64,000 bases of DNA from Asparagopsis taxiformis (taxonomy: Eukaryota > Rhodophyta > Florideophyceae > Bonnemaisoniales > Bonnemaisoniaceae): the NCBI GenBank assembly GCA_030407315.1, contig JALQPE010002695.1, positions 16,377-80,376 of the forward strand, written 5' to 3'. The translations under genes were made by a program, and so were the position numbers. The notes under the pieces were generated by a model, which was given only the letters and a program-made list of their open reading frames with translations, searched no databases and had not been told where the DNA came from. Positions 11,754 to 58,734 of this stretch are shown here, in pieces; the first letter of the stretch is position 1, and every line of letters begins with the position of its first letter.

Positions 11754-12130
11754 CACTACGGTGTTAAAAAGGGGGCCTCAGACAGTACTGCGAGACAGTG
11801 ATTTTTACTGTCTGAGACAGTAAAAATCACTATGCGGCAAATGAAAATTAATGCCACACTTGGAGACAGTGATTTGCACTGTCTGGCAGACAGTACGGAA
11901 CACTGTCTGCAGACAGTAAAAAACACTGTCTCACAGTACTGTCTGAGGCAGTGAATGGAGACAGTAAAAATTAATGATTTATTCAATAGTTGGATATGAT
12001 GTAATTTACTGTACTGGGCAGTGTTGGCGGATAGTGTTTTGTATTGGCCAAGGCAACATGGCCGGATAGTGAAATACGCTGCCTGGGACAATAGATGGAA
12101 CCAACACGGTGCACTGTCCTGGGCAGTACC
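11754..12130. repeat. Left TIR and outer subterminal palindromes
   Basis: After the 12-bp TIR come dispersed inverted units such as GACAGTGATTTTTACTGTC and AGACAGTAAAAAACACTGTCT, the same motif family as at 36370-36730. They are likely transposase-binding sites. No credible coding sequence is present. Confidence 0.75.
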
Positions 12131-12490
12131 TGGAGACAGTGATTTTCACTGTCCTGGGCAGTACCTGTAGACAGTACTTTGTGCTGCCCTGGGCAGTACC
12201 TGTAGACAGTACTTTGTGCTGCCCTGGGCAGCACCTGTAGACAGTACTTTGTGCTGCCCTGGGCAGCACCTGTAGACAGTACTTTGTGCTGCCCTGGGCA
12301 GTACCTGTAGACAGTATTTCGTGCTGCCCTGGGCAGCACCTGTAGACAGTATTTCGTGCTGCCCTGGGCAGCACCTGTAGACAGTATTTCGTGCTGCCCT
12401 GGGCAGTACCTGTAGACAGTACTTTGTGCTGCCCTGGGCAGCACCTGTAGACAGTACTTTGTGCTGCCCTGGGCAGCACCTGTAGACAGC
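12131..12490. repeat. 35-bp tandem array of palindromes (left subterminal)
   Basis: About ten head-to-tail copies of a 35-bp unit, each containing the perfect palindrome GTGCTGCCCTGGGCAGCAC and a GTAGACAGTA(C/T)TT(T/C) stretch. Long ORFs in two minus-strand frames here are only this repeat read through and are not genes. Confidence 0.9.
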
Positions 12491-14291
12491 AAAAGTAGTG
12501 TCCTGATATGGTAAAATTCGGTGTCTGGGAGTGGTGGATGAGATGGAGCGTCACGCTGTCGTGGGCATCTTTCTGGGGTAGAGGAAGGCAGTTCTAGCGC
12601 TATGAGGATGGGGCATGGACGGTATTCATATGGGAATGGACAGAATAGTACGGCTAGGAATTTTTATTTCGTAGTGACTATGATCTAGCGAGAGGTATAC
12701 GCGGTAGGATAGGTAGCAATCTAAGAGGGTGCGATATGGGAAGCTTCACTCTGGATTTGTTTATTTGCGCAGGCTACATTGAGAATAAACAATCCCTATG
12801 TTAAAAATGCTACTACAACTAACACTATTCCGACGAGTAAAACTAAAACTACTAGAAAAGTCTAGAAATCTATCAACTGATTGAGCTGCATGAATAAGCT
12901 AGGAAATGAAGAGAAGAAGAAAAAATGATGTATAGAAAGGAAACAAGTTAGTGACGTTGAATTGGAGAGGGAAATTGATGGTGATTAGGAGACTAACGTA
13001 CCTTAACAAATACCATTGCATCCCAAATTGAGATATGTACTCACAGGCAGAAAAGAAAATTAGTGGAGAAGTGGTAAGAGAGAAAGATAAATGAAAGTAG
13101 AAGTGGAACACTCACCGACTGGAAACCTGAGAAAGAGAAAACGAATAGAAAACTGGGTTAGTGGCGTGAGTTGTGGAAACGTACCATCATGGTTCATATC
13201 TGTCGGAGACAAAGCAACAACTTCGGCTCTGGAAGCAGTATTGATGATCTACAACTTACGCTTTGGAAGCAGTATAGATGATCTGTACTGCTTCCACAGC
13301 CGGAGTTGTTGCTTGTTTCCGACGGATATGAAGATGGAAACAGGGATTTCCAGAATCTGTTGTTTAAGTAGCACTCTGCGGGCGGAAATGACGTGTAGGA
13401 GAACAATAGAGGGATGAATTTGAAACGGAGCGGTGCGATGGGAGGCCCAGAAAAACGATACCTAGGGTGCGAATTACGCTTTGAAGCACATGACCTGGCA
13501 GAACAGGCGCAAAATTATTGTATCTTCTACCGCCTTCTCTAGTCTATAATGACGTCATCACTACAGAAATATAGGAAAAACACTAGCATATGGGGCCTAC
13601 TGGAAAGGGGGAGGCGAGGAGTAGGAAAAATGGCGCACTTTCCTGGACGAGGAGTCCGCGCTTCCAGTGATGATTTGGACGGTATATATCGATGACGTCA
13701 TTGCATGCTCTGAGCACACTTGGCAGGCAGTCAAAGCGGGCCACGTGGATGTGGGCGGCTAGGAAACAGCAGTGTGGGAGAAATTTTATAATTTTCATGT
13801 TGCAAGCGAGCAGTGAATCTGCATTGCAATATATAAATTTATGCTAATTTAAGATATCACACCGAGTACGATTCAACGAGAGATTGTGCTTTCAACTTGT
13901 AAATAGGGCCGAAAATGGTAGAGTATACGAGTAGGAAGTACGTGTATGAGAAAATCAGATTCAGTATTAGTGCCTAGAGCATCACTGCGAAATAAACGGC
14001 CGTTTTCCGGAAATGGATACATCTTGGCTGGGTTTGTGGTTAGGGGATGCGATACAAGATAGCAAAACGATGTTGAGTCCGGATGAAATAGCAATCAATG
14101 TGCATAAAGCAATGAGCATAGGGCAAAGCATTGTGGTGAACCAGTTCATTGGATCGAATGAAAGCCTGGAAAGGTTTCGTAACGGTTAAAAGTAGTAGTA
14201 CTGTATTGAGATAGTAGTCATGTCATAGAAGTTTAGAGTTGTATTCTATGCAACAAAACTGAGCGAAGAAGAAAAGAACAAAAACATCAAG
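12491..14291. other. Non-coding left arm of the giant element
   Basis: About 1.8 kb between the subterminal array and the transposase gene. I see no protein-family signal. It holds a foldback repeat at 13193-13332 and presumably the transposase promoter and 5' UTR. The region is purine-rich on the plus strand around 12890-13150. Confidence 0.45.
13193..13332. repeat. Foldback (inverted repeat) of about 58-bp arms
   Basis: The left arm 13193-13250 (TTCATATCTGTCGG...GATGATCT) is complementary to 13276-13332 (AGATGATCTGTACTG...GATATGAA), with about 85-90% match and a roughly 25-bp loop holding a further GGAAGCAGTAT copy. It may be a MITE-like foldback or hairpin RNA. Confidence 0.7.
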
Positions 14292-17200
14292 ATGGCTCCG
14301 AGACGGACTCCTATTCGAAAGAAAACCACAAGTCGTAGGACAAAGGCGAGATTCGATTCACTCAATGTGGCCAGTCCCAGTAAACAGCTTCCTGGGAAAC
14401 TGCAGGGAGAAATCCGCAGCAGTGATGCAGCCTGCATGAACAAAGAAATCCCGAGAGGTAATGAGCTACGACGTGAGTGTACCACAGATGACCTATTGGA
14501 GTCCCCAATCCCTATGGGTGACACAATAGAAGGTTGTATTGATGTGTACAGCAACAACGATGAAGCTGGAAGTGACATCTACGTAGCATCGAGCACGCTA
14601 ATGGAATCGGAAGAAGCAACCGGACGAGGTTCTGATTCCATTTCAACTGGAGGCCCGATAGACCGAAATGCTGGGGATGAAGCATGTGGTGATTTCAAGG
14701 CATTACTACAATGGCCTGCGATGTATGGGGCTCTTCAGCTGAGTGGAACTCAAAGAATGACAAGAGCCCACTATGAAGGTACCCTGTTCGGAATGAATTT
14801 CCGCAGAGATCCAAGTGAGCACGTCCCGTCGGACTCTGTGATGCGACAGAAGATACTACCATTCTTGAGGAAACACTGCTATGCAAAGAGCTGTGACATC
14901 GAGTTTCCGATAGACCTTCGAAAGAGCGGAGCAAGAGCTGCACAGCATCGAGGTGCAGTAGGAACCCGTGGAACAACAGATGACAGAGACAATTGTGGAG
15001 GAATGGCGAAAGTTCGTATTGTACTCCCAAGCACATGGGCTCTGAAAGATGTCCAGACTCGACCAATCTTTGAAGCATTCCGCAGTGATGCGAACAATCG
15101 AAGCTCGGAAGGAGAAAAATCAACCGCAGAGTGCAGCATTGAAGATTCGTTCATTGCAAAGTGCAGGAGGGGTGTTTTGAGCGACCCATTCGTTCGCACA
15201 GCAGTTGTTCCCATTGACAGCGATGGGAAAAAGGGTTTGAAGCACATTTATGTACCTGATGGAACAGCAATTCGAATCCGATGTCATCCAGGAGCTCGTC
15301 AGGTTGCCGTCATCGAAAGAGCAAAAGGGTTCAGGAAGAATGACAGAGATGGTGGGAAACCGAAGAGGAGAAGAGTGGCGGTTACGTCGTTGTGGGAACT
15401 TCATGCTAGGACCATAGTTACCTATGAGGCTCGACACGACGGTGAGCATGATGTGCATGTCGAAAAATATCTGCAGCCGCGAATGTCACATCTATTGGAA
15501 TGGGAGAGGCAGCATGCTCTGCGAGCGATATCGCAATGTGTAATCGGAGCAGGAGCCAAGGGAAAAGGAACACGAGCTGGGGACGTGATAACCGTTCTAT
15601 TACCAATTGGAATGGAAGAGGGTGATATTGTTCCACACGTCGTATTGGTGAACAGGTATTTGAAAGAGCAGGTCGGAGAAGCATCCACCATGTTACTTTG
15701 CTTTTCACCGGGCGCGAGCTTTGCTGAAGCCAGAAACCCGCCCGATAGACTAGGAAGCCCCAACTATGAAGAAATTCGTGTTTCAGGGGTGTTCTCGGAT
15801 GGTTTCGGAGACCACAGGTCGCAATGGCACCCAGCGTCTCCGCGAGAAGATGCACCATGTTGGGGAAAGCTGGAGGATGGTCGAAACTACTTTGTTTACC
15901 GATTTCTCCTTTACACGGATGACTTTGAACCATTCACAAGCAGGAAGGGAAGTTTTGGTGGATGCTATATGTTACCTCTCAATCTACCGCCTCGGAAAAG
16001 GGGAAGCTACCAAGCGGTTCGAGTGATTGGTTTGCCACCTCCGGGAGTGTCCACAAATTGTGTATTGCGATATATCGTTCAAGATATAGTGCGAGGAAGC
16101 ACAGAGGGTTTCCCAACGAAAAATGCAGAGGGAGAAGATATTGTGGTATTTCTAGACCCAGTGGGGAGCATTGGAGACTATCCTGCAGTTTCACATACCC
16201 TGGATGTTCTTGGACACACATCAAACTCTCCGTGCCACATCTGCAGTTTCCGCAAATATGACCTGAGCAGTACTGGTGGCACGAAGAATGCATACACTTC
16301 GGTAGTGAACGGGCAAACATCGACGCATGCCAGGAGCAAGTATCGGAATGCATCGACACGTAAGGATGCCACAGAAACCCAGCTTCGCACTCTCGGACTG
16401 GCTGCAGAAGAAGGGGAAGATTTACCATTTCATGTCCTGAGCACTTCCTTGGAAGCAGTGCAGGAAGAAGTACCGAAGACGGAAAACGGAGTTTCAGTTG
16501 TCCCAGCAATTTTTGACCCGTACCGTTCCGCAGTGATAGCACCTGACCATCTATTGTCTGGACTGGCACAAGATGTACTGAACGCTTGTATTTCAGCTGC
16601 CAGCCCACGAATTCGAGAGGTAGCTGAATTGCAAATTCTGGGCGCTCTGAAGAAGTTCAGGATGGGAAGGCAGAACCGTTTATTTGGAACCAACAATCTG
16701 CTTTCCATGAACATGAGTGACATATTCAGTGTGCTTCTGATAGCACCTATGGCATTCGAAAACGCAGCTCGAATGATGGATGGGAAAGGGGAAGGTCATC
16801 GTGAAAAATTTGATGGGGCCGTCAAACTAGTAGTGATGTTTCAGAAGCTGGTTTCGTGTATTAGTTTCATGCCCGTATGGTGGAAAGACGGTCCCCATGA
16901 AGTAGAGACGGCTGACGGAGAAGGTGGCAGGAATGAATACATTCTGGGAAGAACTGTAGACTACGTGGAGACGTTGAATGAGTATTGTCGGAAAGTGAAG
17001 GGAGCAGGAGCACATTTGGACAAGCCTAATGTTCATCGTCTTGTCGAGTTTTGTGTTCATACGCTTCCTGCCTACGGCTCTGTGAAGCACGTGCAGGAGC
17101 TTATATTCGAACGGATGCATCAGCCGCTGAAGAAAGGTGTGAGAATGTCCAATCACCAAAGCGAACAGCTTTCAGCGCTGGAATTAGTTCTTGCGGATGA

Positions 17201-18095
17201 CTGGCAGACGAGAGTGGCCATTGTTTTGCGCGAAATCGGCATGGAGCCACAACATTGGTCCTCGTCCGAATGCTCTCAAATGGTCAACGTTCTTTCACAG
17301 GAGCTAGGGAGAGAAATAGATGTGGAAGACGAGGTAGTGAAAAACTGCTTCCAGGAACCGGTTCTCCAGCTTCTCTCCCAGCGTCGAGGAAAGATATTGT
17401 CGGCGGATGGTGAAATTGTGACGTGGAGAGGGCATGGAGGTATATCTATTGACGAGGTCAAGGAGTACATGAATGGAAAATGTGATATGGCAGAGGGTGC
17501 TGTAGGTGTTTTCAAACGGTTCTTTACCGAAAGGTACGGAAGCGGAACAAGCGGGTGTGGAAAGTATGCCGAATGGGTGAGAAGAGTTTCTAGAAGCACT
17601 ACGACAGAGTGGGGAAGGAAAACAGTGCAGAGGTCTGGCTCTCTAGAATCAGGAGCTATCATCCATGCTGTTTGCCCTGAACAGATGACATGTGAGGATG
17701 GTGCAACTTCACAAGCGATTCTGTACCCGGCGTCTCGTCTCACATCAGAGATAATGCGGGGAAGAATTAATTATGAACCGCGGTTTTTTATTGTTCTAGC
17801 GTTCTTTATCCTGAGGAACGAGAGTGCGAGAGATGAGCAAGGTACAGCTTATGGAGTTTGCCTGGGTTTGCAAAAAACTGATGAAGGAGTGTTCAAGGTC
17901 GAAGAGAGGCGACGAACAGTAATTGTGGAGATGAGTGAGGGAGTCACTGAGGTGTTTGGTATGCACTATTGCAATGGGAGTGTATGCGAATATGATGAGA
18001 ACATGAGGGAGGTAAGGCACGGACCCGGACTGCTGGAGGGTGGAGAGATATATGCACTATGTAGGCGAGACGGATTTCCACCGAGGGCTGCATGA
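14292..18095 (+). CDS. TNP2-like transposase of the giant CACTA element
   Basis: A 1267-aa intact ORF with its ATG in good context (CAAGATGG). The N-terminus is basic and Ser-rich. The RNase H-like core is recognisable from YTDDFEPF (about residue 542), a GSFGGCYMLPLNLPP strand, PPGVSTN, then LDPVGSIGDYPAVSH (about 620) followed by the zinc-binding CHICSF (about 647). A motif equivalent to DPMH is seen in FDPYRSAVIAPDHLLSGL. Late in the protein, LIFERMHQPLKK (about 938) matches the E-x2-H-x2-LKK end of TNP2 cores. This is the layout of CACTA/CMC-superfamily TNP2 transposases. It should bind the subterminal GACAGT repeats and cut at the CACTA ends. No stops or frameshifts are seen, so it may be functional. 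The C-terminal 250 residues are not assigned. Confidence 0.8.
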   Translation: MAPRRTPIRKKTTSRRTKARFDSLNVASPSKQLPGKLQGEIRSSDAACMNKEIPRGNELRRECTTDDLLESPIPMGDTIEGCIDVYSNNDEAGSDIYVASSTLMESEEATGRGSDSISTGGPIDRNAGDEACGDFKALLQWPAMYGALQLSGTQRMTRAHYEGTLFGMNFRRDPSEHVPSDSVMRQKILPFLRKHCYAKSCDIEFPIDLRKSGARAAQHRGAVGTRGTTDDRDNCGGMAKVRIVLPSTWALKDVQTRPIFEAFRSDANNRSSEGEKSTAECSIEDSFIAKCRRGVLSDPFVRTAVVPIDSDGKKGLKHIYVPDGTAIRIRCHPGARQVAVIERAKGFRKNDRDGGKPKRRRVAVTSLWELHARTIVTYEARHDGEHDVHVEKYLQPRMSHLLEWERQHALRAISQCVIGAGAKGKGTRAGDVITVLLPIGMEEGDIVPHVVLVNRYLKEQVGEASTMLLCFSPGASFAEARNPPDRLGSPNYEEIRVSGVFSDGFGDHRSQWHPASPREDAPCWGKLEDGRNYFVYRFLLYTDDFEPFTSRKGSFGGCYMLPLNLPPRKRGSYQAVRVIGLPPPGVSTNCVLRYIVQDIVRGSTEGFPTKNAEGEDIVVFLDPVGSIGDYPAVSHTLDVLGHTSNSPCHICSFRKYDLSSTGGTKNAYTSVVNGQTSTHARSKYRNASTRKDATETQLRTLGLAAEEGEDLPFHVLSTSLEAVQEEVPKTENGVSVVPAIFDPYRSAVIAPDHLLSGLAQDVLNACISAASPRIREVAELQILGALKKFRMGRQNRLFGTNNLLSMNMSDIFSVLLIAPMAFENAARMMDGKGEGHREKFDGAVKLVVMFQKLVSCISFMPVWWKDGPHEVETADGEGGRNEYILGRTVDYVETLNEYCRKVKGAGAHLDKPNVHRLVEFCVHTLPAYGSVKHVQELIFERMHQPLKKGVRMSNHQSEQLSALELVLADDWQTRVAIVLREIGMEPQHWSSSECSQMVNVLSQELGREIDVEDEVVKNCFQEPVLQLLSQRRGKILSADGEIVTWRGHGGISIDEVKEYMNGKCDMAEGAVGVFKRFFTERYGSGTSGCGKYAEWVRRVSRSTTTEWGRKTVQRSGSLESGAIIHAVCPEQMTCEDGATSQAILYPASRLTSEIMRGRINYEPRFFIVLAFFILRNESARDEQGTAYGVCLGLQKTDEGVFKVEERRRTVIVEMSEGVTEVFGMHYCNGSVCEYDENMREVRHGPGLLEGGEIYALCRRDGFPPRAA

Positions 18096-18610: not shown

Positions 18611-19274
18611 ATAGTTAAGGTTAAGTAACCAACTTTAGGATGTCCAGAGGACCTGCTCGTTGTAAGGAATATTGATCAACTGACGAAGAGGAAGCATTTT
18701 GAATCGACTAGGGTAGGAACGCAATGAGATTTGGTATGCAAGAAAACTGAATCGCAGTAGTGAATAGGTAGTTGAAATGAATTCATATTGATGTTCTTTG
18801 GTGTATTGTCCATTGGAGCACATTGAAAACCATTTATATGATCACCGTTTAAATAGTCTATGAATCCTTTGCAGCCGAGTACGCCAATAGGAAGAAATTC
18901 AAGCAGTGGCCTGCACGGGAACCGTTCATTTGTGAGTAGCAAAAGTTAGTGTAGAAATGAATTTTTCAGACTTGTAGGAGAGGTGGATCGTAGTAAATGT
19001 ATAAAACTCACGTAGAATCGATTGATAGGAATCAATGGTACGGAAGAAGAAGCGAGGTGGAGAGTGTGGATGAAATAGGTTGTTGGAATATGAATGATAA
19101 TTGACGTGGTGAGGTAAACGGGTTCGATTGCATTATATGCGCTAGAGGTACATACTATTAGGTGTAGATTGATGGAAAGGGCTAAACGCTTTGTGGAGGT
19201 ATCAGGATCAGGTAGAGTCAGAGGTGCTGAGCGGGTGCAGCGTAAGGTTCATCAGGACTGAACGTAGGTAGGGA
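18611..19274. other. Upstream region of locus B
   Basis: A/T-rich, non-coding by eye, presumed promoter and leader of locus B. It contains GAGGTACATACTATTAGG near 19145, with a similar GAGGTACATATTATTT just upstream of the other TNP2-like gene near 37442; this may be chance. Confidence 0.3.
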
Positions 19275-20798
19275 ATGTCTTGTCCGGACAGTATAAGAGA
19301 GGAAGCTGAGAGACGGGAAGCGCACTCGGAGGTACCACAATTGTGGATTTCATCGTCTACACAACATTTGAACAGAGAACCGATTGAACGAACTGAGATT
19401 GCAGGGATTACAATGGGAGACAATAGTATCATGAATACTACAGCGGAGAAGAGCAATTCTCCTTCTGCTGAAGAGAAAAGCATCACTATTGCTCAGTACA
19501 GCTCTTCTAAAGTGCAAGTTGATCCTCGCAAAGTGAAATTTCCGACAGTGACCTCCCGTTTGGTGCGACCGGGTCGTGTAAACGAACTGGCCAGCATTTT
19601 CATGGATAGAGGTTTCTCTACCACTGGAACTATGATTACAGTCTGCAAAATGGAAGATAACGAAGGAGACGAGTTTTACTGCATCGATGGCTCTCATCGC
19701 ATAGCTGCTCTGCAACTATGCCTGGAGAAGTACTCAGGAAAGAACAGGGATTCCTTGGAATTGGTTTGGGTACAACAGTTGATTGCGCCGAACGGGCGTC
19801 TAATTTTCGATGCGCTGGAGGTTCTGAAACTGTCTCTCGAAGCCAATATACAAACTCACGATGTCGCTTCTGTGAGCATTGCCGACAATGTGTGTGCGGT
19901 CATAGAGTTTCTCAGGTTTTCCAACCAGATGGATCTTCCTGTTGTCCGGCTTATTCCTATTCTGAAAGAAGTGAGCTATATTCTGCCGTCCGACAGGAAC
20001 CGTTCGGAGAACTCGTATAGGCAGTACATCAACATTGCGAAGGGGTTCAATCGCACAGACAGCGTTGCTTTCGTGTACTGGAGCTCTATCCCTAGCGTTT
20101 ACAATGCTTTGGATAGGAACAGAGAAATCGAGGATGCAAGAACCGAGGGAAGAGATCCGGACTTTTCTCGAATTGACTCTGCCGATATGTACGGGTGCGT
20201 GCTCGATCTTGTCAATAACGCAATATTCCGCAATGGCACGGACGGACGCGGGACGCGCGATAAGGAGTGGTTCCAGTGGTTTGTGCTCGAGATGACAGCG
20301 TCGTGGACAAGGATGAGGAGGAAGAGAGGACTTGTCAGAAATATCGGAAGCGGAAGTCCGTTCACGATGCGCACTTGGCTACTGGCTCTGTTGGCCATCT
20401 ATGATATGGCAGAGGTCGTCCGCAAGTGGTTGAACTCTGCAACGATGGAGGAATTCGTGCGAACGGATTTGGCAGCAGAAAACGCGAAGGAGGTCGGGGA
20501 TAATGATCATCGCATTGGAGAGCGCATTGTATTCGTCCTTGTCGACTTTCATGACGACGTGGTAGACAGTAGCAGTCTGAGAACCAAGAACGGGATGTTT
20601 ACAAACAGTTTTTACGACAAACTGGAATATGCTACCGGGACAAAGGCAATGCAGGAGACGAAAGCGGAGGAGGAGAGGGAACGGAATCGCATGACCCCCG
20701 GAGAAATAGAAAAAGCACTTGTTGATGGCGCCAAAGCAGAAGACGAAGAAGCACCTACTGCCGCAGAACAGGGAAATAATTCTACAGAGAAGGAAACT
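19275..20798 (+). CDS. Locus B, first part: ParB-like domain
   Basis: The ORF opens at ATG 19275; a second ATG in better context lies at 19413 (ACAATGGG). The ParB-like domain covers about residues 85-150: VTSRLVRPGRVNELASIFMDRGF, then FYCIDGSHRIAAL (about 136-146), the GxHR signature. Next is the conserved segment IQTHDVASVSIADNVCAVIEF, also present in locus C as MNFHTHNVSEVTVADNVCSVMEF, then an alpha-helical region with VLEMTASWTRMRRKRG. The native frame runs into an acidic linker and is lost at a 7-bp repeat near 20799, where the dioxygenase half continues in the next frame. Function is unknown; a DNA-recognition or nucleotide-binding role is inferred from the ParB fold. Confidence 0.7.
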
Positions 20799-20808
20799 GG
20801 TGGAAACT
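20792..20808 (+). other. 10-bp microduplication causing frameshift in locus B
   Basis: GGAAACT occurs twice separated by GGT (20792-20798 and 20802-20808). Treating ten of these bases as a tandem-duplication insertion restores a single frame linking the acidic KET linker to TSGPVQAEEGVSAE of the downstream ORF. I see no better intron boundary here. It could also be an assembly error. Confidence 0.6.
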
Positions 20809-22536
20809 TCTGGTCCTGTTCAAGCAGAAGAAGGAGTATCTGCCGAAGCCCAAGCAGAGCAGGAAGTTTCTGCTGTTGTGGAGGAAGAACAGGAAATTAC
20901 TCCAAATGTGGTGGCTGAAGAAGTGATTCCTGCTGTCGCGACGAAAGCAATAGAAGAGGCACCTCTGAGCACCCCGAAAGAAGCAGAAGACCGTCCTGCC
21001 GCAGCAAAAGAGGGAGGACAGGAACGTCCTGCCACGCGTCTTGCAGCAGCTGAGAAGAGGGAAGCAGAACGTCTTGCTGTTCTCCAAAAAGAACAGGAAC
21101 GTCTTTCAGCTTCAAGGGCAGAGCGGGAAAGTCGTGCCAGGGATAATTCGCCGGGAAGGATTGTCAGAGAAGATCTTCCTCAGGGAAGGAAACAAAGCGG
21201 CGATACGCAAAGTCTGGATATCAACTTGGACAATAGTGGTCGCATGGACATAGACACGCCTGGACAACAAGCTGGAGATGCGCAGAACCGCTCTGTGATA
21301 TTGAAACTTCGAATCAGGACACCAGAAACTTACAGCACTAGCCCGGCCGAAGTGGACAAGGAGAATTCGGGAAGAAGCAGGAGTTCTGGTGGAAGCGGCG
21401 ATGAAAACGAGTCCAGGTTGGATAAGAAGCGAAGAAGGGAAGATACTAGCGCGAAGTTTTCTGAGCCCAATACGCCGGATGACAACATTGAGATTGGGCC
21501 TCCCCGGGAAAAGAAGAGTAGAGTCAATGCAAGAGAACGAACGACTGGAGAAGAAGCACCACTCTTCACTGACGAGCAAGAAAACTCCCTTCCAGACCGC
21601 ACATTCGCAGAGGACATACCTGAGAAGCTGCCTTTATGCGTTCCTTCCAACTCGAGAATGAAGTATTATATCACAGAAGAAGACATTGATACAATCCGGA
21701 CGGAGATAATGGAAGCAGCTGCAGGCTACTCTACTTTGGTATGTCCCCTCGGTTCTTGTGAAAGCCAACAATACTTCAGCTACCAGAGAAGAATGATCGA
21801 CGAGCTTGGTTACGTGGTGTTGCAAGACATTTTCTCTTCTACTACAGTGGGAGCAGCTACGCACGAGTTATTCACACAGATGGCCAGCACATTCCAAGGT
21901 ACTACAAGTGGCTCAAGTGCAAGTCAGAAGAACCCGTGGAAACCACTTCGACCGAAAGACAGCACTGGTGTATTCAAGACGGACCGGAAAAGCATCTGCG
22001 ATGACCTTGAGCAAGAAAGCGCGCGGCAGTACAGGAACAAGCTGATTCTGGAGCTAGGTAAGGCGATTTGTGCGGAGAACCTGAAGCTCGGGTTTGGAAG
22101 AGAAGAAGCGGTGGTCTTTCCAGAAACGGGTCTTCGTCTGATTTTGACCGCAGAAGGTAGTCAGGAGCAACTTATGCATACCGATGTTCCCGTCCGTGAG
22201 GGAACTGGAACTGGTCCTCTCAACTCGCCATCATATTTCATGATGGCTGCTGGTGCGGATGGGTTCATCATTCGTATCGCCAAGTTCAGCCATGTGTGCC
22301 TAAGTCATCCAGCGAAAGACAAGTACCGCGTGCCAGTGACGAACGTGCGCATCCCACCGTATTCCCTGCTTGTATGCCGAACGGACGTGTATCACGGAGG
22401 AATGGGATTCGCGGAGGGTCGTTCTTCGGTGAGGTACCAGCATCCTATCCGGTCCCATCTATCACTGCGAACTTCCAGGGAGAAGTTGCTACAGCCTCCC
22501 TTCAATGTCAACTACTGGGAGCGTTTAGATATCTGA
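20809..22536 (+). CDS. Locus B, second part: 2OG-Fe(II) dioxygenase-like domain
   Basis: After a long Glu/Ala/Arg-rich linker with coiled-coil character (about 20810-21600) comes a globular domain starting near SRMKYYITEEDIDTIRTEI, conserved in locus C as SRMKYYMESTTVETVRAEM. The catalytic core has TGLRLILTAEG, MHTDVP (HxD, His codon at 22177), SPSYFMMAAGADGFIIRIAK, IPPYSLLVCRTDVYHGG (distal His) and VRYQHP, a candidate 2-oxoglutarate-binding Arg. This order matches double-stranded beta-helix dioxygenases of the PhyH/TET-JBP/AlkB type. The TGA stop is at 22536. It probably forms one protein with the preceding ParB part. Substrate is unknown; modified DNA bases are an attractive hypothesis. 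Confidence 0.68.
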   Translation, partial: SGPVQAEEGVSAEAQAEQEVSAVVEEEQEITPNVVAEEVIPAVATKAIEEAPLSTPKEAEDRPAAAKEGGQERPATRLAAAEKREAERLAVLQKEQERLSASRAERESRARDNSPGRIVREDLPQGRKQSGDTQSLDINLDNSGRMDIDTPGQQAGDAQNRSVILKLRIRTPETYSTSPAEVDKENSGRSRSSGGSGDENESRLDKKRRREDTSAKFSEPNTPDDNIEIGPPREKKSRVNARERTTGEEAPLFTDEQENSLPDRTFAEDIPEKLPLCVPSNSRMKYYITEEDIDTIRTEIMEAAAGYSTLVCPLGSCESQQYFSYQRRMIDELGYVVLQDIFSSTTVGAATHELFTQMASTFQGTTSGSSASQKNPWKPLRPKDSTGVFKTDRKSICDDLEQESARQYRNKLILELGKAICAENLKLGFGREEAVVFPETGLRLILTAEGSQEQLMHTDVPVREGTGTGPLNSPSYFMMAAGADGFIIRIAKFSHVCLSHPAKDKYRVPVTNVRIPPYSLLVCRTDVYHGGMGFAEGRSSVRYQHPIRSHLSLRTSREKLLQPPFNVNYWERLDI

Positions 22537-23716: not shown

Positions 23717-23949
23717 GATCCTTGGTAAACTGCCTGAGCTGTAATTGTCGTACAACGAAAAGTGATGTGGAAGGTTCGGATTGGTCAACCGCTGAATATC
23801 ATTACCAGGGTGTATACTAATAGGAATATGTCAGATCTCTAAGTTTCGCCTATCTTACTCAGCTTACGCAGCAAAACAGCTTGTCGTTCAGATCTTCTTC
23901 TCTCTTTCTCAATCTTTCACTCTTCGTTTGTCAATCACTCACCAAAGCA

Positions 23950-27234: not shown

Positions 27235-27266
27235 GTAGCGACGAATAGTGTTGGAAGTCCTACCAG
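27235..27266 (+). other. Possible 32-nt mini-intron or frameshift in locus C
   Basis: AAG/GTAGCG at 27234/27235 and CCTACCAG at 27259-27266 give GT-AG borders. Removing the 32 nt joins HTDFK to SPSYFMMSSGADGF in frame, matching locus B. Such an intron is far shorter than usual in most eukaryotes, so an indel frameshift is a strong alternative. Confidence 0.45.
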
Positions 27267-27596
27267 TCTCCATCATATTTCATGATGTCGAGCGGAGCCG
27301 ATGGGTTCTCTATAGTAGTTGCCCCTTATAGTCATGTATGCCTGGCCAATCCGGACGCCGATATGTGGAAGGTTCCCCCTCTCATCTTTTGGGTGCCACC
27401 CTATTCCGTATTGGTTGGTCGCGGTGACCTTTACCATTACGGGGTCGGCTTCAGCCGAGGAGATCTTCCTGCAGGCGAGAAGTTAGTCTATGGCCTGCCC
27501 ACGCGCGGCCACATCTACTTGAAGACGGAGAAGGACGTCCTCACGGACCACATCCACACCGTCGAATATTACAAGTACGATAGGAGCAATAGATAG
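27267..27596 (+). CDS. Locus C: C-terminal dioxygenase segment
   Basis: Starting at TCT 27267 the frame reads SPSYFMMSSGADGF, then VPPYSVLVGRGDLYHYGVGF (distal His) and LVYGLPTRGHIYL, colinear with the end of locus B. It ends at TAG 27596. It has no start of its own in a sensible place and is best read as the last exon, or frameshifted end, of locus C. Confidence 0.65.
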   Translation, partial: SPSYFMMSSGADGFSIVVAPYSHVCLANPDADMWKVPPLIFWVPPYSVLVGRGDLYHYGVGFSRGDLPAGEKLVYGLPTRGHIYLKTEKDVLTDHIHTVEYYKYDRSNR

Positions 27597-28693: not shown

Positions 28694-31600
28694 TCAGTTA
28701 GCTGGCCAATATTTTCTACCATAGTCAGCAAATATCTCCTCATCAGCTTCAACGTCTCTGGTCAGAACGACCTTGACAGCATGGGGATTCTTGATATTCG
28801 AAGCAAAGTCCGGTTTGTCTATGGCATCGCCTTGTCGAAACTCGGCTGACTGTGTTCGACTCACCTCGGTCGCTTTCTCCGTTCCGTCAATGACCCGACA
28901 ATCATTGAGGTAGCTGGTACAATTATAGACCGCTGGAACGAGCCAGACCTTCCGAACAGGTGCACCCCTCCCTATGTACGTGGTTTCCAATTCCATGTTG
29001 TAGTCCTGGAACCTCTCTCCTGTGCACCCAAATCCTTCCGGGCCGTACATCACTGATCTCTGCGGTTCCGAGTCTCGAATCTTCGCATAGAAAATCGTCC
29101 CGTTGTACCAGCCAATGACCGTCCCCTTCTTCAGTTTCTTCGCCGCGAATACGCCAAACCCACCACCTCTTACCTCCGATTGCGAAACATAGACACCGTA
29201 GAATGCGGCATCAGCAGCCAGAATCGCGTCCGGGTCTATGCTCCAAAACGAGTGCATGTCCTCGGCCGGCCACTGGTCCATAGGCACCCCGCTCAATCTG
29301 TGAAGCATAGACCCGTCCTTCTTCATTGACGCAACGAACACAAGCAGATGGTTCGGCAATGCTGTCACAGCAGGTAAACCTTCTGGTGCATCTGAGATGT
29401 GCTTCTGACGAAGCCTTGGAGCTTTTCCTGTGACCGGTACCGACTCGTCCCCAAGAATACTCTCCACCTCACGCTGCAAGATCCCCCCATATCGCCCGGC
29501 TTTCACCTCACTGACGAAAGCATGCAGTATCCACTCCTGCGATGCATCGTGGCACCTTTTTTCCTTCTCACACCCAATGAACCGACGATACGTACCATCC
29601 CTCAACGTCATACACGCTATGGCTGTGCTGTATGTTCCCGAGAAGAAATCCATCACGATATCGTTCTGCTTCGAAAATCGTTCCAGAAGCTCACGAAGAG
29701 TGGTCAACGCCTTCTGCTCATGGCGCAGTCGGTTGTTCTGCCCATCGTATTGAGCTTCACCAGCCGACAACCTCGGAACGTTGTCAATCGCGTTGGTGAA
29801 CCCAGGGTGCCTCGATATGTCCGGATTGTGCAACCTGTAATCCACCATATCGTATGCAGCCATACCCTTCCCCCGCTTATACGCATGGATAACGAAATCG
29901 TGCATATTATGCAGTGTGCACGTTTTCGTCGATGGATTGGACGTAAAGCTGTGTGGTCGGCGAGATAGCACGACTGGAACACTGTCCACAATCATCTTGC
30001 CAGGCTCGGCATTTCTGATTGCATCCATCCATGCCACGAGTTGGCGCACGCTGGAATAGATTAGAGCATGACCGCCAGGCCGAAGAACTCGAACTATTTC
30101 ACACGCAACACTCGCCAACTCTTCCGGCTCCAGAATATCGTACTCCGAGTTTTCTCTGCCGCCTTCCCGCCTCGTGTTGAATGGAGGATCAGTGAGCACA
30201 AGCTGAACACTGTCCTCCAACACGCCATCTTCCAGGAAACTAATTTTGTCCTCCACCTCTTTGGCTACATCAGTGGCGTCACAATTCACAGTGTGAATGT
30301 AACGCCCCATCACAGCTTCCAGCTTGGTGACATATTCCGGCTTGGTTTCCTTTCCGACGTCAACGAGCGGTGCTTCTGTAGGCGATACAGTGTCAACCTC
30401 CATAGCGTCATCCTCGGCCGCACCTTCTCTTGTTGCTGTTTCGCTAGCAACCGCCGCATTATCGTCCTCTCCACCACCGCGCTCCAGCCTAGCCTTCTTC
30501 CTCTGTGGCTCCAGACTATCCTCTTCTATATCCTCGCTGCCATTGTTTGGCACTGCTGCGGATATTTCCATCTGCGCAGGTGCACCTTCAAGGATGCCAG
30601 GCTCGGGCGTATCCTCAAGACTGTGCAACTCATCCATGGTCAGAGGAAGCTTTCGTTGCTCTCGGGTTCGCAATAACCAAGCCTTCAGCCTCCTCTGACC
30701 ATCCAGGGCATGAGACGTGTTCAACTTGGCTCGCATGAACGAGTTCAAGCCGAACTTGTCAGGAGTGTCGAAAAGCAAGGCTCGAAGTCTCTGCATCAGC
30801 TGACCACGCTCGGCGAACACATTCACCTCAGTGACACATTGGCGTATCGACAGCAGGAAGGCGCTTGTCAATGATCGCAGCCTTGCATCCACAGCCACTG
30901 GAAGGTCGGCACAGAACCCGTTTTCACTGTCTACAGTTTTCGGGACAATGGTCAGGTTTTTCCGATGCTCCTCGACCGCGCAGCCATCAGACCGATTCGG
31001 GAGTGACCTGAAGCAAAGGCTCGCAGGATCGAATACCATGAACGGCCAGCACATCGATTCAACATCCTCATACCCCAACACTCTTGCCCCGGTATCCCAC
31101 GCAGCTAACACACGGTCGACAACAAATCCAAGCTGGTTGGCTTGCGCACTGGATGTTGCAATTCCAACCATTCCACCACCACCAATGGCCCCGGATGTGG
31201 CTCTGGCCCGCCTAGATGGCACACTGCCCATCTCCTTACTGCGAATAGCCAAGATACACTGGCACATCATAACCATCAGCCTCCTGAACCGCTTCTGGCT
31301 AGCCTGCAAAGAATCTTGCATGTCGGATGTAGCGCCGTCTAGAAAGTACCTGCTCGAAAGCAGTTCGCGGTTCAGTGGAGAGGACAATTCTCCGCGGGGT
31401 GTCTTGCCAAACATTTCGACGGCACGAGAACTAGTCACCCCCACCTGTTTCGGAAACTCAACCATCCTCGGAGAATCACCCATCTCTGCATTGAGTCCCC
31501 ATGCATGACAAAACATTTGCCACAGACGCAAATCAATCGCACTCGAATCTTCTGCTCGGTGATACGGCCGAAGCACAGCCAGGATAGACATGCATGAGCT

Positions 31601-32161
31601 GTACTGCGGTTTACCACTCAGGCTTGAAGCAATTTGGCCGCTTGGATCGCAGGACTTGATCCAGCCCAACACATCGGCCATCCTCACAGACGAAATATGA
31701 GCGTACTTGTCCTTTCCGTTTTGGACCCAGTACTCGTCTCTGAGATCAACGGCGATCATCAGATACTCAACAAACATCATGCGCCTTTGCAGGCCTGCAA
31801 TGTCGTTGGATGTCGTCGCTCTCACACGGTCCAGCACAACAGCAGTACTGCTGTTGGTGTCCGCCACGATAGACTCTTCTCGCATAGGAATCGTAACGCC
31901 AGGAGGAAAGACGCCCTTCTCCATTCCACGTACAATTGCCATGCAGCGGTGCGCTCCATCCAATATCTCCAGAACGCCTTCTCGAAACCTGCCAGTCACG
32001 GGATGAGCTGTGTCATAACCGCTGTTGCGAATGCTCTCCATGAGCGCTTCCACATGACTTGCATCAACATCGCGAATCGATACGAATTTGCTGACTTGAT
32101 TGGGGTCGATGAACACCCATCCGTCGTGCTTTTCACCGTGATTGTGGAACGTTCCTTCCAT
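28694..32161 (-). CDS. Locus D: ParB-like + DNA amino-methyltransferase + SET fusion
   Basis: Start set at ATG 32161; three upstream codons begin with TTG. The 1155-aa protein has three recognisable modules. First, a ParB-like domain at about residues 15-85 (VFIDPNQVSKFVSIRDVDASH, then EILDGAHRCMAI). Second, a beta-class-order DNA methyltransferase: motif IV TDPPFNTR near 660, then VLRPGGHALIYSS and NMHDFVIHAYKRG, and motif I-like DIVMDFFSGTYSTAIACM near 835. DPPF is typical of N6-adenine or N4-cytosine enzymes. Third, a C-terminal SET domain at about 990-1158 with RGGGFGVFAAKKLKKGTVIGWYNG, YLNDCR in place of the usual NHSC/NH block, and DVEADEEIFADYGRKYW. SET domains methylate lysines, chiefly on histones. 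An acidic linker and KKARLERGG lie between modules. A protein that could mark both DNA and histones is striking. The ORF is open throughout. Confidence 0.82.
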   Translation of the reverse strand: MEGTFHNHGEKHDGWVFIDPNQVSKFVSIRDVDASHVEALMESIRNSGYDTAHPVTGRFREGVLEILDGAHRCMAIVRGMEKGVFPPGVTIPMREESIVADTNSSTAVVLDRVRATTSNDIAGLQRRMMFVEYLMIAVDLRDEYWVQNGKDKYAHISSVRMADVLGWIKSCDPSGQIASSLSGKPQYSSCMSILAVLRPYHRAEDSSAIDLRLWQMFCHAWGLNAEMGDSPRMVEFPKQVGVTSSRAVEMFGKTPRGELSSPLNRELLSSRYFLDGATSDMQDSLQASQKRFRRLMVMMCQCILAIRSKEMGSVPSRRARATSGAIGGGGMVGIATSSAQANQLGFVVDRVLAAWDTGARVLGYEDVESMCWPFMVFDPASLCFRSLPNRSDGCAVEEHRKNLTIVPKTVDSENGFCADLPVAVDARLRSLTSAFLLSIRQCVTEVNVFAERGQLMQRLRALLFDTPDKFGLNSFMRAKLNTSHALDGQRRLKAWLLRTREQRKLPLTMDELHSLEDTPEPGILEGAPAQMEISAAVPNNGSEDIEEDSLEPQRKKARLERGGGEDDNAAVASETATREGAAEDDAMEVDTVSPTEAPLVDVGKETKPEYVTKLEAVMGRYIHTVNCDATDVAKEVEDKISFLEDGVLEDSVQLVLTDPPFNTRREGGRENSEYDILEPEELASVACEIVRVLRPGGHALIYSSVRQLVAWMDAIRNAEPGKMIVDSVPVVLSRRPHSFTSNPSTKTCTLHNMHDFVIHAYKRGKGMAAYDMVDYRLHNPDISRHPGFTNAIDNVPRLSAGEAQYDGQNNRLRHEQKALTTLRELLERFSKQNDIVMDFFSGTYSTAIACMTLRDGTYRRFIGCEKEKRCHDASQEWILHAFVSEVKAGRYGGILQREVESILGDESVPVTGKAPRLRQKHISDAPEGLPAVTALPNHLLVFVASMKKDGSMLHRLSGVPMDQWPAEDMHSFWSIDPDAILAADAAFYGVYVSQSEVRGGGFGVFAAKKLKKGTVIGWYNGTIFYAKIRDSEPQRSVMYGPEGFGCTGERFQDYNMELETTYIGRGAPVRKVWLVPAVYNCTSYLNDCRVIDGTEKATEVSRTQSAEFRQGDAIDKPDFASNIKNPHAVKVVLTRDVEADEEIFADYGRKYWPAN

Positions 32162-32674
32162 GGCGAACAAAGGTAGAGTTTTTAAGAAAGGGATAGTTGG
32201 TTGCTGCTTGACCAGGGTGGCGCAAAGCAGAAGTTGGTTGTTTAAAACAAAGTGTCAGCGAGTGGTAGCACTTCGGTGGCTGTTTCCTTTCCACCCCTGT
32301 CCGAACCTTTACAAGATAACTACATCGACTGTTAGCTCAATAATCAATGTAATACTAAAGTAATACTCAAAATATTTTTCCATGCAATTTATTGGGCCCC
32401 GTAACATCTCTAAGCGTATCTTTGTAGTCCAATCGTATGCATCCGACATTCACTTCTAGAACGATTATTCACATCAAATTTTATGCTGCAATCAGTTCAT
32501 GGCAGACATCATCCACACTGACGTGTCAATTTTGTCAATTGTCCATTCTATTTCTACACCACCTAAACATCTCTTCTGGACCTTTCCAATCCTCCTAGTA
32601 TATACTACTCTTTAGCAGAAGGTAACGGTTAGGCTTTCACTAATACAACAATTCTATCCCATAGCTATCCCAAC
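32162..32674. promoter_or_regulatory. Shared divergent promoter region of D and E
   Basis: Locus D reads leftward and gene E rightward from this 513-bp gap. AGTATATACTAC near 32596 is a TATA-like palindrome about 75 bp before the E start codon. No ORF of interest is present. Promoter use is inferred from gene orientation only. Confidence 0.4.
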
Positions 32675-34036
32675 ATGCTTCCTCTCGCTCCAAACGACGT
32701 TATAGAAGTTCAATGGGAACTTCGGCCGTTTGGGAGGAAACGAAAAATTGTGTGGTGGTCTGCAATCGTCAAGGAAATTACTCAGGTCAAGACTGAAACA
32801 GACCCATTCCTCCATGCATTGCTCGAATACAAAGCTGAATATGGTTTCGACTCTACCCTTTCTCAAGTCAAGATTTCAGATCGTAACGAGCTCGTCGACA
32901 AGGATTCCGGAAGGGTTCTCCCGTGGCGAAGTGGTGAGCTTCGCAGTATGGACTCACCTGCATCCCCAGCAGAGAGAGACCCGGACTACGGCATTGACCA
33001 CACTCGCCACCGCCACCGCGGCATCCTTCAAGATTGCACTGCGGATCAAATGAAGAAGACCATAGCAGAAATGCTGGCAAGATTGGAAAAGCTGGAGTCA
33101 GCTGCCAAACATCCTCTTCCCCCTCCATTCGATTCCAACAGCTCCATGACCTCCTCTGCTCTGACTGTATGTAGCATTCTGTTTCAGAAGCTTGGTGTGT
33201 ACACGGACAAGCCCCTCTCCCTCCGGATGACAAAATCCGAGCACTCCAGGGGAATGCGACAAACATCGCAAGAAGAAATCAGAGTACAGGCTGACTGCTC
33301 CCTTGCTCAATTCCGCACTATTGCCATTCAATGCAAGGCGAAAGAGAATCGTGACGTTCTCTTCCAGCCGTCCTTTGAGGACATCACCTTTCCCTCTGGA
33401 AATGAGTCGGATCTTTCCATCATTTTCCCCACCTTTCAGGCACTATGTGACTCCATAGGTACCTCGCAACACGGGTTCCAGAAAATATTGGTGAAGAGCA
33501 GGGCGGAACGCGATGGAGGCAGCTCATCGATTGTCCGAATTTTAGGAAATCTAGTCGACGTTGATTGCTCTCATGATGCTCCTTCTTCCGCATTTCTCGT
33601 CGGCTCATCTGCTTACGTCCTGTCCAGCCCAGACCAACGTATGACAGTTCTTTGCAGAGACTCCTACGAGTTTGACCATGTCAACAATACATTTTTACAT
33701 CCCCTATGTCTTAGCCAACTATCACAGTCTAGCATCGTGGACTCTTTCCACCTACGTGATAAGGCTACTGTTACTTATGGAGCAACGTTTTCGTTACTGT
33801 GGAGACGTATTCAGCGCCGAGCTTGTTACAGCACTTTCCAGCCTCTATCAACCGCAGAGACGTTTGGTACACTACATCTACGCTTACCTTGCTGTATTTT
33901 CAGTGGTACTACTACATGCCAGGAGCTTGAAGACATTGGCTATGAGGCTATCTCTCGTCTTGGCTTCAATGCGGATTCAGACACTACCCACCCACCCTCT
34001 CCTCCACCTGCCACCTGCAGTCCGGAGCAAAAATGA
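32675..34036 (+). CDS. Gene E: Tudor/Agenet-like N-terminal domain protein
   Basis: A 453-aa protein. The first 85 residues (NDVIEVQWELRP, KIVWWSAIVKEI, LLEYKAEYGFDSTLSQVKI, GRVLPWR) follow the pattern of small beta-barrel readers such as Tudor/Agenet/SGF29-type domains, which bind methylated lysine or arginine. A short helix (KKTIAEMLARLEKLES) follows. The remaining about 280 residues, with SLLWRRIQRRACYS and a Pro-rich end, match nothing I know. Divergent from D and convergent with F. If the domain call is right, it could read the mark made by the SET module of D; that link is inference. Confidence 0.5.
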   Translation: MLPLAPNDVIEVQWELRPFGRKRKIVWWSAIVKEITQVKTETDPFLHALLEYKAEYGFDSTLSQVKISDRNELVDKDSGRVLPWRSGELRSMDSPASPAERDPDYGIDHTRHRHRGILQDCTADQMKKTIAEMLARLEKLESAAKHPLPPPFDSNSSMTSSALTVCSILFQKLGVYTDKPLSLRMTKSEHSRGMRQTSQEEIRVQADCSLAQFRTIAIQCKAKENRDVLFQPSFEDITFPSGNESDLSIIFPTFQALCDSIGTSQHGFQKILVKSRAERDGGSSSIVRILGNLVDVDCSHDAPSSAFLVGSSAYVLSSPDQRMTVLCRDSYEFDHVNNTFLHPLCLSQLSQSSIVDSFHLRDKATVTYGATFSLLWRRIQRRACYSTFQPLSTAETFGTLHLRLPCCIFSGTTTCQELEDIGYEAISRLGFNADSDTTHPPSPPPATCSPEQK

Positions 34037-34311
34037 TAAAGCACACCTATCCGTAGTTATCCTGTTCCTGGGTATTCCATTCTAGAGCTCCTGTGGCCAT
34101 CAATTTCTAGTAAAGACGGATACCCTCGCCCCTTCCTACTTCGACTATTCCACTACCTGTCTCTGCGCTTTTCCTTCGACTTGACACTATCGTCTGACTG
34201 GTTTCCTGATGTCTCGCATCTATCTACTTCCATCTATTACAAAATTCAACTCAACAGAAATTTTATTTCTTCATTCTTCGTCTACTACACCGAAACTGGT
34301 TTCATCCGATA
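34037..34311. other. Convergent 3' gap between E and F
   Basis: T/C-rich non-coding interval of 275 bp where the convergent genes E and F should terminate. No hairpin cluster of the CTTACAGC family is present here. Confidence 0.4.
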
Positions 34312-35838
34312 CTACTCCCCTTCATTCTCGATTTCATCATCGACGAATACCTTCACATATTCTGCATCTCCTCCGTCCTCTTCCATAGACCTGAAGCTCT
34401 CCTCCAGCACTGATTCCCCCCCATCGTCTACATTCAGTTCTTCATATCTATCACGCGATATAGTCAAAACCTCCTCATTCATGAACCGACTACTCACCCG
34501 CTCCCCGGGAAGAAGCAGTTTCACTGCTTCATTGATTTCCCGGATTTGCGCTCCTTCCACCTCTGTTCCACTTTGAAATTTCAAAATCGTTCGGAACCCG
34601 TATGCAAGTATGTAGATGAATTGCAAGGAGTATTCTGAACGTCGCAGGAACATGTTCTTATCAGAACATTGCGTGTAGGCGACTGCAAAGTTCAGTGCAA
34701 CCTCTACTAAATTGATCCTCCTAGTCAAAAACCTCTTGTCCGGTTCTCCAATTATTTGAACTTCGTACTCGACTTTGAATAGCATTTCTTTTCGCACTGC
34801 AATGAAGTCGCGAAGAATCTTCATATTCTTGTCATCCATTGCTGCACGCTCCGCTGCATTCATTTTCCTCTGCGCCGAGTACAGACTTGGAACTGACTCA
34901 ATGTCCAGCCCACCGTCGTGCAAATGATGCTCCATTCGGACTGAACCTTGAAACCCACTGTATAGAACGAATCCAAGATCTCGGATGAACCGGTTTCGCA
35001 CATGATCTCTGGACTTGTTCATAAACCCGGTCACTGCTGTGAGTGCCGATTTCGTCACAGTGATGCCTACCTCCTTTCTGTGCAACGGCCCATTGTCTCC
35101 AACCTTTCTTCGCTTCTGCTTTCGAGCGGCCCCATCACTTCCCTCGGACGTCCCATGCATTCCATCCATGCGAGCAGAGTCCGTTCCGCGAATTGTCTCC
35201 TCAATGGTCCCGGTAGTCACATACCCCCGCGCCCTCCACCGTTCGATACCTTCCGACGTTCCATTGGAGCTGGAACGGTCTCCTCCCTCTCTGAAAGAAT
35301 TGTTTTGACACGTATTCTTGATTAAAGAGGTCACAACTTGGCAGCGCAATTCAATGTGGTTCCGGCCGGCAAGCGTCCTATTGAACACATCCTTTCGCTC
35401 ATTGCTCTGCCTGGCGAACATCAGCGTATTGATTAGCTGGCATCCGTTGAAATGCCTATCCCTCTTATCCACCATTGCCTTCGTGTACGTTGGAACAACA
35501 GCACACAGCACAGCACACACCATTTCGAACGTGAACGATTTCTCCGCATCCTGCGCAATGCGGAGACGTTCCCTGTCCTTCTCGGAGGCGATCTTCTTCG
35601 GATGTCCTTGTCCCTGGCTCAGAAGCCCATCGACGATGCTCTTGACCTCCTGCATATCGGTGTTTAGCATGGAGACAGTCTTGGCGACATTTCCGAGAGT
35701 CTCGCGTAATTGAATGGTGCTCTTCTCGACGGCATCCATTTTATCACTCAGGGCTTTCAACTCTGCAGTGATGTTCGAAAAGCCCTCACGCGTTATTTCG
35801 GAAAATGCGGCGATGCTTACGGAGGTTTCGGGATTCAT
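34312..35838 (-). CDS. Gene F: coiled-coil protein of unknown function
   Basis: A 508-aa intact ORF from ATG 35838. Residues 10-75 show heptad spacing (GFSNITAELKALSDKMDAVEKS, then LGNVAKTVSMLNTDMQEVKSIVDGLL), a likely coiled coil for oligomerisation. A basic KQKRRKVG near residue 250 could be a nuclear signal. A helical region contains FMNKSRDHVRNRFIRDLGF and a very acidic tail ends the protein. I do not recognise a catalytic motif. As the last gene before the right subterminal repeats, it could be an accessory transposition protein (analogous in position to TnpA of En/Spm), but no sequence evidence supports that. Confidence 0.55.
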   Translation of the reverse strand: MNPETSVSIAAFSEITREGFSNITAELKALSDKMDAVEKSTIQLRETLGNVAKTVSMLNTDMQEVKSIVDGLLSQGQGHPKKIASEKDRERLRIAQDAEKSFTFEMVCAVLCAVVPTYTKAMVDKRDRHFNGCQLINTLMFARQSNERKDVFNRTLAGRNHIELRCQVVTSLIKNTCQNNSFREGGDRSSSNGTSEGIERWRARGYVTTGTIEETIRGTDSARMDGMHGTSEGSDGAARKQKRRKVGDNGPLHRKEVGITVTKSALTAVTGFMNKSRDHVRNRFIRDLGFVLYSGFQGSVRMEHHLHDGGLDIESVPSLYSAQRKMNAAERAAMDDKNMKILRDFIAVRKEMLFKVEYEVQIIGEPDKRFLTRRINLVEVALNFAVAYTQCSDKNMFLRRSEYSLQFIYILAYGFRTILKFQSGTEVEGAQIREINEAVKLLLPGERVSSRFMNEEVLTISRDRYEELNVDDGGESVLEESFRSMEEDGGDAEYVKVFVDDEIENEGE

Positions 35839-36369
35839 CTTGACCTTGCAATTGGAGTTTGCTAAAAGGAGAATTGCTTTGAAGGAAGGATGTCACGCTT
35901 AGTACAGCAGTGTTGTAGCAAATATCATTTCAGTGGATGCATCCATCCTGGTCTACTCTACATAATAATAATGCTTCCCAGTGCTCCGTAACGGTTATTT
36001 TTCATAATTTAGTGGTGGATGGTGCGTATTCTTTCCTTTGCCACCACCCACGTCCTGTGCATACCACACCTCGCTACCAGACTGACGTCTCCTACTAGAC
36101 ACTTTCAATGCAAAGATAGATAGGTATAATTTGAAATGCTAAACTCAACATATTATAGCTACTCTGTACATTCTCTCCTTACGGTGAGACAAACCAGATA
36201 TGTTCTGTTCTCCCAATCTTCCTTTCTACAACGTCCTATTCAGCATCTAGCTTCCCCGCACCCAACTATCTGTAAAGCACCATCACAATTAATATAGTCG
36301 TATACCACACACCATTCCAATATTTACCTTCACACCAACACTATGCTCCATATTTCCTCTAAGTCCACT
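35839..36369. other. Upstream region of gene F
   Basis: Non-coding, A/T- and C-rich; presumed promoter of gene F (minus strand). Nothing else seen. Confidence 0.35.
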
Positions 36370-36744
36370 CCACCAGACAGTGTTGTCAAACAATGCACGG
36401 TACTACCCGCAGACAATACAATTTGCTATCTACACTACTGTCTACAGATTTCCCCAGACAGTGCAGTAATACAGTACAATGTATTGTCTCAGACAGTAAA
36501 ATGTACTGTCTGCACATACTGTCTGGCGGCAACACTTCCGGACAGTAAAATTTACTGTTCTGGACAGTAAATTTTACTGTTTTTGGTACTGTCCAGATTT
36601 CGTGCCAGTTTACTGCTGCAGCAGTATTCTGAAATTTCCAGACAGTAAATTTTACTGTCTCCGCGCACTGTCTTGGCCAGACAGTAATTTTTACTGTCTC
36701 AGACAGTAAATTTACTGTCTGTTTTCATTCTCAACACCGTAGTG
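36370..36744. repeat. Right subterminal palindromes and right TIR of the giant element
   Basis: Dense GACAGTAAA/TTTACTGTC inverted units (for example CAGACAGTAAATTTTACTGTCT near 36641) in the same family as 11754-12130, ending in AACACCGTAGTG, the inverse of the left terminus. The last 18 bp, with four flanking bases, form TCAACACCGTAGTGTTGA, itself a palindrome. Confidence 0.78.
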
Positions 36745-58730: not shown

Positions 58731-58734
58731 AATA

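Follow-up and report, generated by a model that had tools for sequence, protein, structure and literature searches.

Can a single DNA transposon carry both the machinery for its own movement and a set of enzymes that act on its own chromatin? This question is raised by an interval of 24,991 base pairs (bp), at 11754..36744 on the forward strand of a 64-kb stretch of the genome of the red alga Asparagopsis taxiformis (contig JALQPE010002695.1); the whole of that stretch is hereafter called the window. An earlier interpretation, the sequence-only reading, had taken the interval for a giant CACTA transposon with a DNA writer, a DNA eraser, a histone writer and a histone reader among its cargo. 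We find that it is one copy of a CACTA-type transposon of about 25 kb, and this one-element interpretation holds because the ends are shared among copies, the copies are collinear, an empty site has been found for an insertion with a 3-bp target duplication, and the transposase has a RAG1/Transib fold. We further propose, with a probability of roughly 0.6, that the element is an autonomous and recently active member of the CMC clade whose cargo would be directed at its own chromatin, keeping the element expressible or marking its ends. As an observation the sequence-only reading is partly confirmed, since two of its domain labels ('2OG' and 'Tudor') were not borne out, and as an interpretation it is partly supported.

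Ends, copies and target sites

The element is bounded by exact 12-bp terminal inverted repeats, CACTACGGTGTT at 11754..11765 (forward strand) and the same sequence inverted at 36733..36744 (reverse strand), and the window contains no other exact match. When up to two mismatches are allowed there are five matches against 3.55 expected, which is chance level; the 12-bp end match was rejected as proof by itself, and it is the copies that prove the element. As in CACTA/EnSpm transposons of the CMC clade, the termini start with CACTA in inverted symmetry and are followed by subterminal repeats, here the GACAGT/ACTGTC palindromes noticed in the sequence-only reading. The first 740 bp (11754..12493, a region that includes a 35-bp tandem array at 12114-12489, variable between copies) contain them at 32.4 per kb and the last 600 bp (36145..36744) at 26.7 per kb, compared with 0.47 per kb in the element interior and 0.56 per kb in the rest of the window, an enrichment over the interior of 57 to 69 times.

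The two terminal 200-bp segments of the element served as probes against the assembly (141 Mb in 3156 contigs), and each matched at 100% identity in 40 of 40 scored places, drawn from 1130 (left) and 875 (right) first-look candidates; nearly all other entries in these searches are repeat hits to those places, caused by the palindromes. Three more full-length copies were read whole (C168, 26,148 bp; C74, 25,264 bp; C44, 27,188 bp), and all three can be aligned with the window copy over their full length, with genes in the same order, main blocks 98.3-99.8% identical (matches over 100 bp only) and sharp borders at CACTACGGTGTT beyond which the flanks are unrelated. Identity falls to 94-97% in the tandem-repeat region near the left end of C44 and C74, and the differences in length between copies arise from the 35-bp array and from spacer duplications. 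The flanks of the additional left and right ends likewise differ, except in one pair (L010 and L011, on contigs C355 and C347) whose identical right-end flank represents two haplotypes or an assembly duplication. Two copies (L008 and L039) are nested within other copies, at about element positions 5906 and 92. The end of contig C337 and the start of contig C64 coincide with the right terminus exactly or within 3 bp, a sign that the assembler broke at the repeat.

Both flanks of the window copy are themselves repeats (40 of 40 scored places on the left; 23 places, some partial, on the right), and uninterrupted copies of these flanks show the empty target on the left (L069 and L070) and on the right (L073 and L074). 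On contig C797 the right-hand target carries a 24,319-bp insertion, of which the junctions but not the interior were read: the left junction is ...GATTTGTT|CACTACGG and the right junction ...CCGTAGTG|GTTGAGG, and comparison with the empty target ...GATTTGTTGAGG gives a 3-bp duplication of GTT. CCC stands on both sides of the element in C1573, a second duplication of the length typical of CACTA/EnSpm. The window copy is flanked by TAT on the left and TTG on the right, and its right junction is one base shorter than that of C797. The left junction of the window copy also occurs on C797, 2.9 kb away from the right-hand target. The window copy is therefore a composite, its left and right ends stemming from two different insertions brought together through recombination or in the assembly. 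The absence of a duplication in the window was considered as an argument against transposition and rejected, as both flanks are repeats with uninterrupted copies and the insertion in the C797 target has its own GTT.

Transposase, methylase-SET protein and remaining cargo

All six genes listed in the sequence-only reading exist as reading frames, and its transposase, DNA methylase and SET assignments have support. The transposase is encoded by a 1288-codon frame at 14229..18095 (forward strand) and has a RAG1/Transib-like core fold. Its likely catalytic residues are D564, D650 and E961, placed by what we take to be the RAG1 spacing, and a zinc pair (C669xxC672) follows D650, giving the DDE and C(2)C arrangement of the CMC clade. 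In alignments of 13 of the 14 proteins found (P0016 was omitted as 100% identical to the transposase itself, P0002), H936 of the H(3-4)H motif that precedes the last E is invariant, but the residue four positions on is an equally invariant E940 (H-x3-E) and the next histidine stands at 944. Pfam Transposase_21 (tnp2) gave no match for P0002 at an expectation value (E) of up to 0.1, nor, with the limit raised to 10, for three of the 13 related proteins. A true Transposase_21 match (E 4e-15) does occur at window positions 37429-39357, in a fragment of a different CACTA element, and the right end of the main element is inserted in that same repeat.

Among the cargo is gene C, a 1186-codon frame at 28694..32254 on the reverse strand, in which a ParB-like stretch (31805..32137; motif DGAHR) precedes an N6_N4_Mtase domain (29537..30208) and a SET domain (28718..29161; NDCR and DYG present). 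The methylase match (E 2.4e-16) comes with the DPPY/F motif and motif I of N6/N4 methylases, and the order of DPPF before SGT is what we take to be the beta-class order; the candidate DNA writer is thereby upheld. The SET match (E 4.3e-6; 27.5 bits against a cut-off of 22.4) lies on the same protein and provides the candidate histone writer. A protein search of 5.8 billion sequences, with 7996 candidates scored, passed six, among them the gene C product itself (P0008). Methylase and SET occur together in the precomputed Pfam assignments of three of the remaining five, and the only informative name is one from the red alga Chondrus crispus. No ParB-like start was seen in any of these five aligned relatives, two of which are short, from which the methylase-SET pairing seems older than the ParB fusion found in the element.

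Gene C also served for a partial survey of whether cargo occurs without the ends, or the ends apart from one another. All 39 scored places of the methylase-SET gene keep the full 1186-codon frame open, these being the best-scoring of 3838 candidates and hence biased to intact ones. The position of the right end, about 4.5 kb from the methylase gene, was requested for 18 places, one of which lay beyond its contig, and the right terminus was found in 15 of the 17 stretches fetched; the other two hold element interior instead, in one case inverted. The left terminus was found in four of 13 left windows, and earlier attempts to find a partner end succeeded in none of four. In this sample, then, the methylase gene almost always travels together with the right end. 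Truncation or rearrangement is common on the left side, and the low counts for the far end show that many copies are incomplete or rearranged.

Genes A (19272..22536) and B (23824..27285), both on the forward strand, are diverged paralogues with 44% identity across their last ~200 residues. Gene A is a single 1087-residue frame in all three other copies and is frameshifted in the window into two overlapping frames (19272-20918 and 20710-22536); gene B is a single 1257-residue frame in one of the three (C168), and its frameshifted window version stops early within the candidate 2-oxoglutarate (2OG) dioxygenase domain. Both proteins show by eye the HxD...H motif of 2OG-Fe(II) dioxygenases, as HTD...YH, and a role as dioxygenase, let alone as DNA eraser, is a guess at the level of this motif. 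The ParB-like label on the cargo proteins is weakly supported: DGxHR is common to five of five ParB-like stretches (from the window and copy C168), PHROG ParB-like matches reach E 0.003 and 0.02, and SbnI (E 0.17), which we take to belong to the ParB/sulfiredoxin superfamily, is the sole PDB match of the profile within a limit of E 10; Pfam gave no ParB match at E up to 10.

Two further frames complete the cargo. The 467-codon protein at 32633..34036 (forward strand), put forward as Tudor-like and hence as a histone reader, has no family match, and neither a Pfam Tudor match at E up to 10 nor a relevant PDB entry was found; both labels are unsupported. The 'coiled-coil' protein at 34312..35892 (reverse strand) is present as a frame of 526 codons (537 in two other copies), but with only weak sub-threshold matches. 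Profile and library searches returned no informative match for either protein.

A proposed model of self-directed chromatin and its rivals

We propose a model for the element that most reasonably fits these observations. The transposase would cut at the CACTACGGTGTT ends and yield 3-bp target duplications such as those of C797 and C1573, while the accessory proteins would have the DNA of the element and its nucleosomes as their targets, sustaining expression or marking the ends. ParB-like domains may tether or nick DNA, the fused methylase may deposit an amino-group mark on DNA, either N6-methyladenine (6mA) or N4-methylcytosine (4mC), and the SET domain may methylate a protein target, probably a histone. 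The pair of ParB/2OG proteins could oxidise a mark on DNA or protein. The methylase and SET activities and the ParB DNA binding are those predicted from the families concerned, and it is plausible, as we infer wholly from these, that the element edits the chromatin around itself and so manages its own epigenetic state. A bolder form of the model, in our judgement less likely than not, would make the ParB-like domain a shared addressing module through which an amino-methylase, two oxidases and a SET enzyme reach the element's own DNA, where marks would be set and erased through the life cycle, in a bacterial-style design traded among unrelated red algal DNA transposons.

Several observations weigh against the model. 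The 3-bp duplication was not seen in six of eight full copies (window, C168, C74, C44, C1830 and C1561), and CCC in C1573, taken alone, could be a coincidence, with odds of 1 in 64 for each copy; the composite origin established for the window copy may also account for the others. The count of eight leaves aside five right-end stretches whose left window lies beyond the contig (C2268, C931, C2450, C1734, C667), seven with the right end only (C2046, C1833, C2805, C436, C390, C1728, C1772), one with the left end only (C1569), one with neither (C2260), one whose right position lies beyond its contig (C818) and four windows searched earlier for a partner end that showed none (C337, C121, C104, C92); flank lists were made unique, with common inner bases required and the window's own ends added separately. 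The SET domain of gene C reads NDCR where NHS, the usual catalytic motif of SET domains, is expected, so that the usual histidine is absent; the same column is ND in four of five diverged relatives (P0012 differs). For the C-terminal domains of A and B, Pfam at E up to 10 gave no match, TET/JBP included, a PDB profile search of the candidate 2OG domain returned only two chance entries, and its structure model, built from four sequences, reached a predicted local distance difference test score (pLDDT) of 32. At least one gene is frameshifted in each of the four fully read copies (A and B in the window; the transposase in C168; gene B, methylase-SET and coiled coil in C74; gene B in C44), and these frameshifts may be real or errors of sequencing or assembly. 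Codon changes between copies and references, in comparisons that are not independent, amount to 30 nonsynonymous, 34 synonymous and no nonsense changes, little sign of selection, with nonsynonymous to synonymous counts of 5:2 for the transposase, 3:0 for gene A and 12:5 for methylase-SET; at 4:17 gene B alone looks constrained, perhaps together with the coiled coil (0:3), the 467-residue protein standing at 6:7. The bias to intact genes among the 39 methylase-SET places belongs with these points.

Dam methylation couples the transposition of Tn10 to replication and the hemimethylated state, and the methylase could act here in the same manner, marking new DNA while other cargo helps build the transposition complex, with silencing not the issue. 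The dense subterminal GACAGT palindromes would be candidate binding sites for such a complex, and a Bacillus cereus ParB-adenine methylase fusion is described as a nonspecific nicking enzyme (PMC5512222). We consider this explanation unlikely, as it leaves the SET domain without a part to play and has no methylase site preference to point to. A little less likely again is that the cargo consists of host or other mobile genes captured passively, to no benefit of the element. Cargo frameshifts in three of the four copies read (C168 is broken in the transposase only), the counts for methylase-SET and gene A, and related ParB-like genes outside the element are what such capture would leave behind; set against it are the full-length methylase-SET genes in all the scored places, biased as they are, the divergence of paralogues A and B with each open in at least one copy, and the occurrence of ParB-like/methylase genes in two kinds of transposon. 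It is very improbable that the interval is a set of distinct elements, nested in one another or fused during assembly. Two insertion sites do meet in the window copy, contigs C115, C146 and C191 end less than 8 kb from a left end, and left or partner ends were seldom recovered; against this, gene order and ends are the same in four differently placed copies and C797 holds both ends in one target, 24.3 kb apart, with a 3-bp duplication.

Neighbouring carriers and known systems

A second, unrelated and complete-looking transposon lies at 46074..58730, described here from this one copy, with 49-bp inverted ends that are 94% complementary and a 4-bp duplication, AATA, on both sides (46070-46073 and 58731-58734). 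It encodes a ParB-like protein of 985 residues with an N6_N4_Mtase domain and no SET match (48982..51939, reverse strand; 27% identity to the methylase of gene C over 206 residues) and a DUF7869 protein that may be its transposase (46213..48813, reverse strand), and it also includes stretches that look, by eye, like parts of an NTPase and of a WD40 protein. Since this unrelated transposon carries one, cargo of the ParB-like/methylase kind occurs in at least two kinds of transposon, and ParB-like modifiers in at least two different transposons within 64 kb. Outside the main element, at 6726-10289, a ParB-like frame of 717 residues is followed by a frame similar to the C-terminus of gene B (32% over 106 residues, E 2e-5), perhaps marking a third carrier. 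The sequence-only reading is to be corrected here, in that ParB-like/methylase and ParB-like/2OG-like frames are present in the window outside the element as well. Two Copia polyproteins, 81% identical, flank the element on either side (2155-6234 and 39988-44145).

Transposons with one chromatin gene are already known. A young, repeated element that unites candidate erasers with a DNA writer and a SET domain, next to an unrelated transposon with its own ParB-like/methylase protein, would make it directly testable whether a mobile element sets its epigenetic state itself instead of only withstanding that of the host. Furthermore, the methylase cargo suggests that 6mA or 4mC may serve this organism as a working mark.

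The plant En/Spm (CACTA) elements, as generally known, share with this element the CACTA ends, subterminal repeats, 3-bp duplication and a DDE transposase of the CMC clade; where En/Spm encodes two proteins this element encodes six, with no Pfam Transposase_21 match and no recognised TnpA. Among the open-licence papers on red algal transposons that were listed, no title or opening line of an abstract mentions an element of this kind. In bacterial and phage fusions such as Bce_0392 a ParB-like domain precedes an adenine-type methylase, as it does here; these do not sit on a eukaryotic transposon, and the passages on them mention no SET (PMC5512222). Retrotransposons of dinoflagellates and charophytes also bear a DNA methylase, but of the C5-cytosine type (PMC5890265), in contrast to an amino-group methylase in a cut-and-paste element. 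HarbingerS and MuDR elements of Phytophthora are alike in carrying SET methyltransferase genes on DNA transposons; they differ in transposase superfamily, and the passage that cites them mentions no DNA methylase or ParB fusion (PMC12730594). The closest parallel found in the open-licence literature is with the fungal TET+ DNA transposons, of which the same paper distinguishes 11 lineages, Kyakuja, EnSpm and Plavaka included (Kojima 2025, PMC12730594). Some of these transposons have CAC..GTG ends and duplicate 3 bp of their target. Kojima argues that their dioxygenase cargo would undo silencing, an anti-silencing proposal of the same standing as ours. Unlike those elements, ours gives no TET/JBP match, has a candidate 2OG domain that is ParB-fused and doubled, and adds a DNA methylase and SET. 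Shared as well is the presence of one type of cargo in transposon lineages that are unrelated (PMC12730594).
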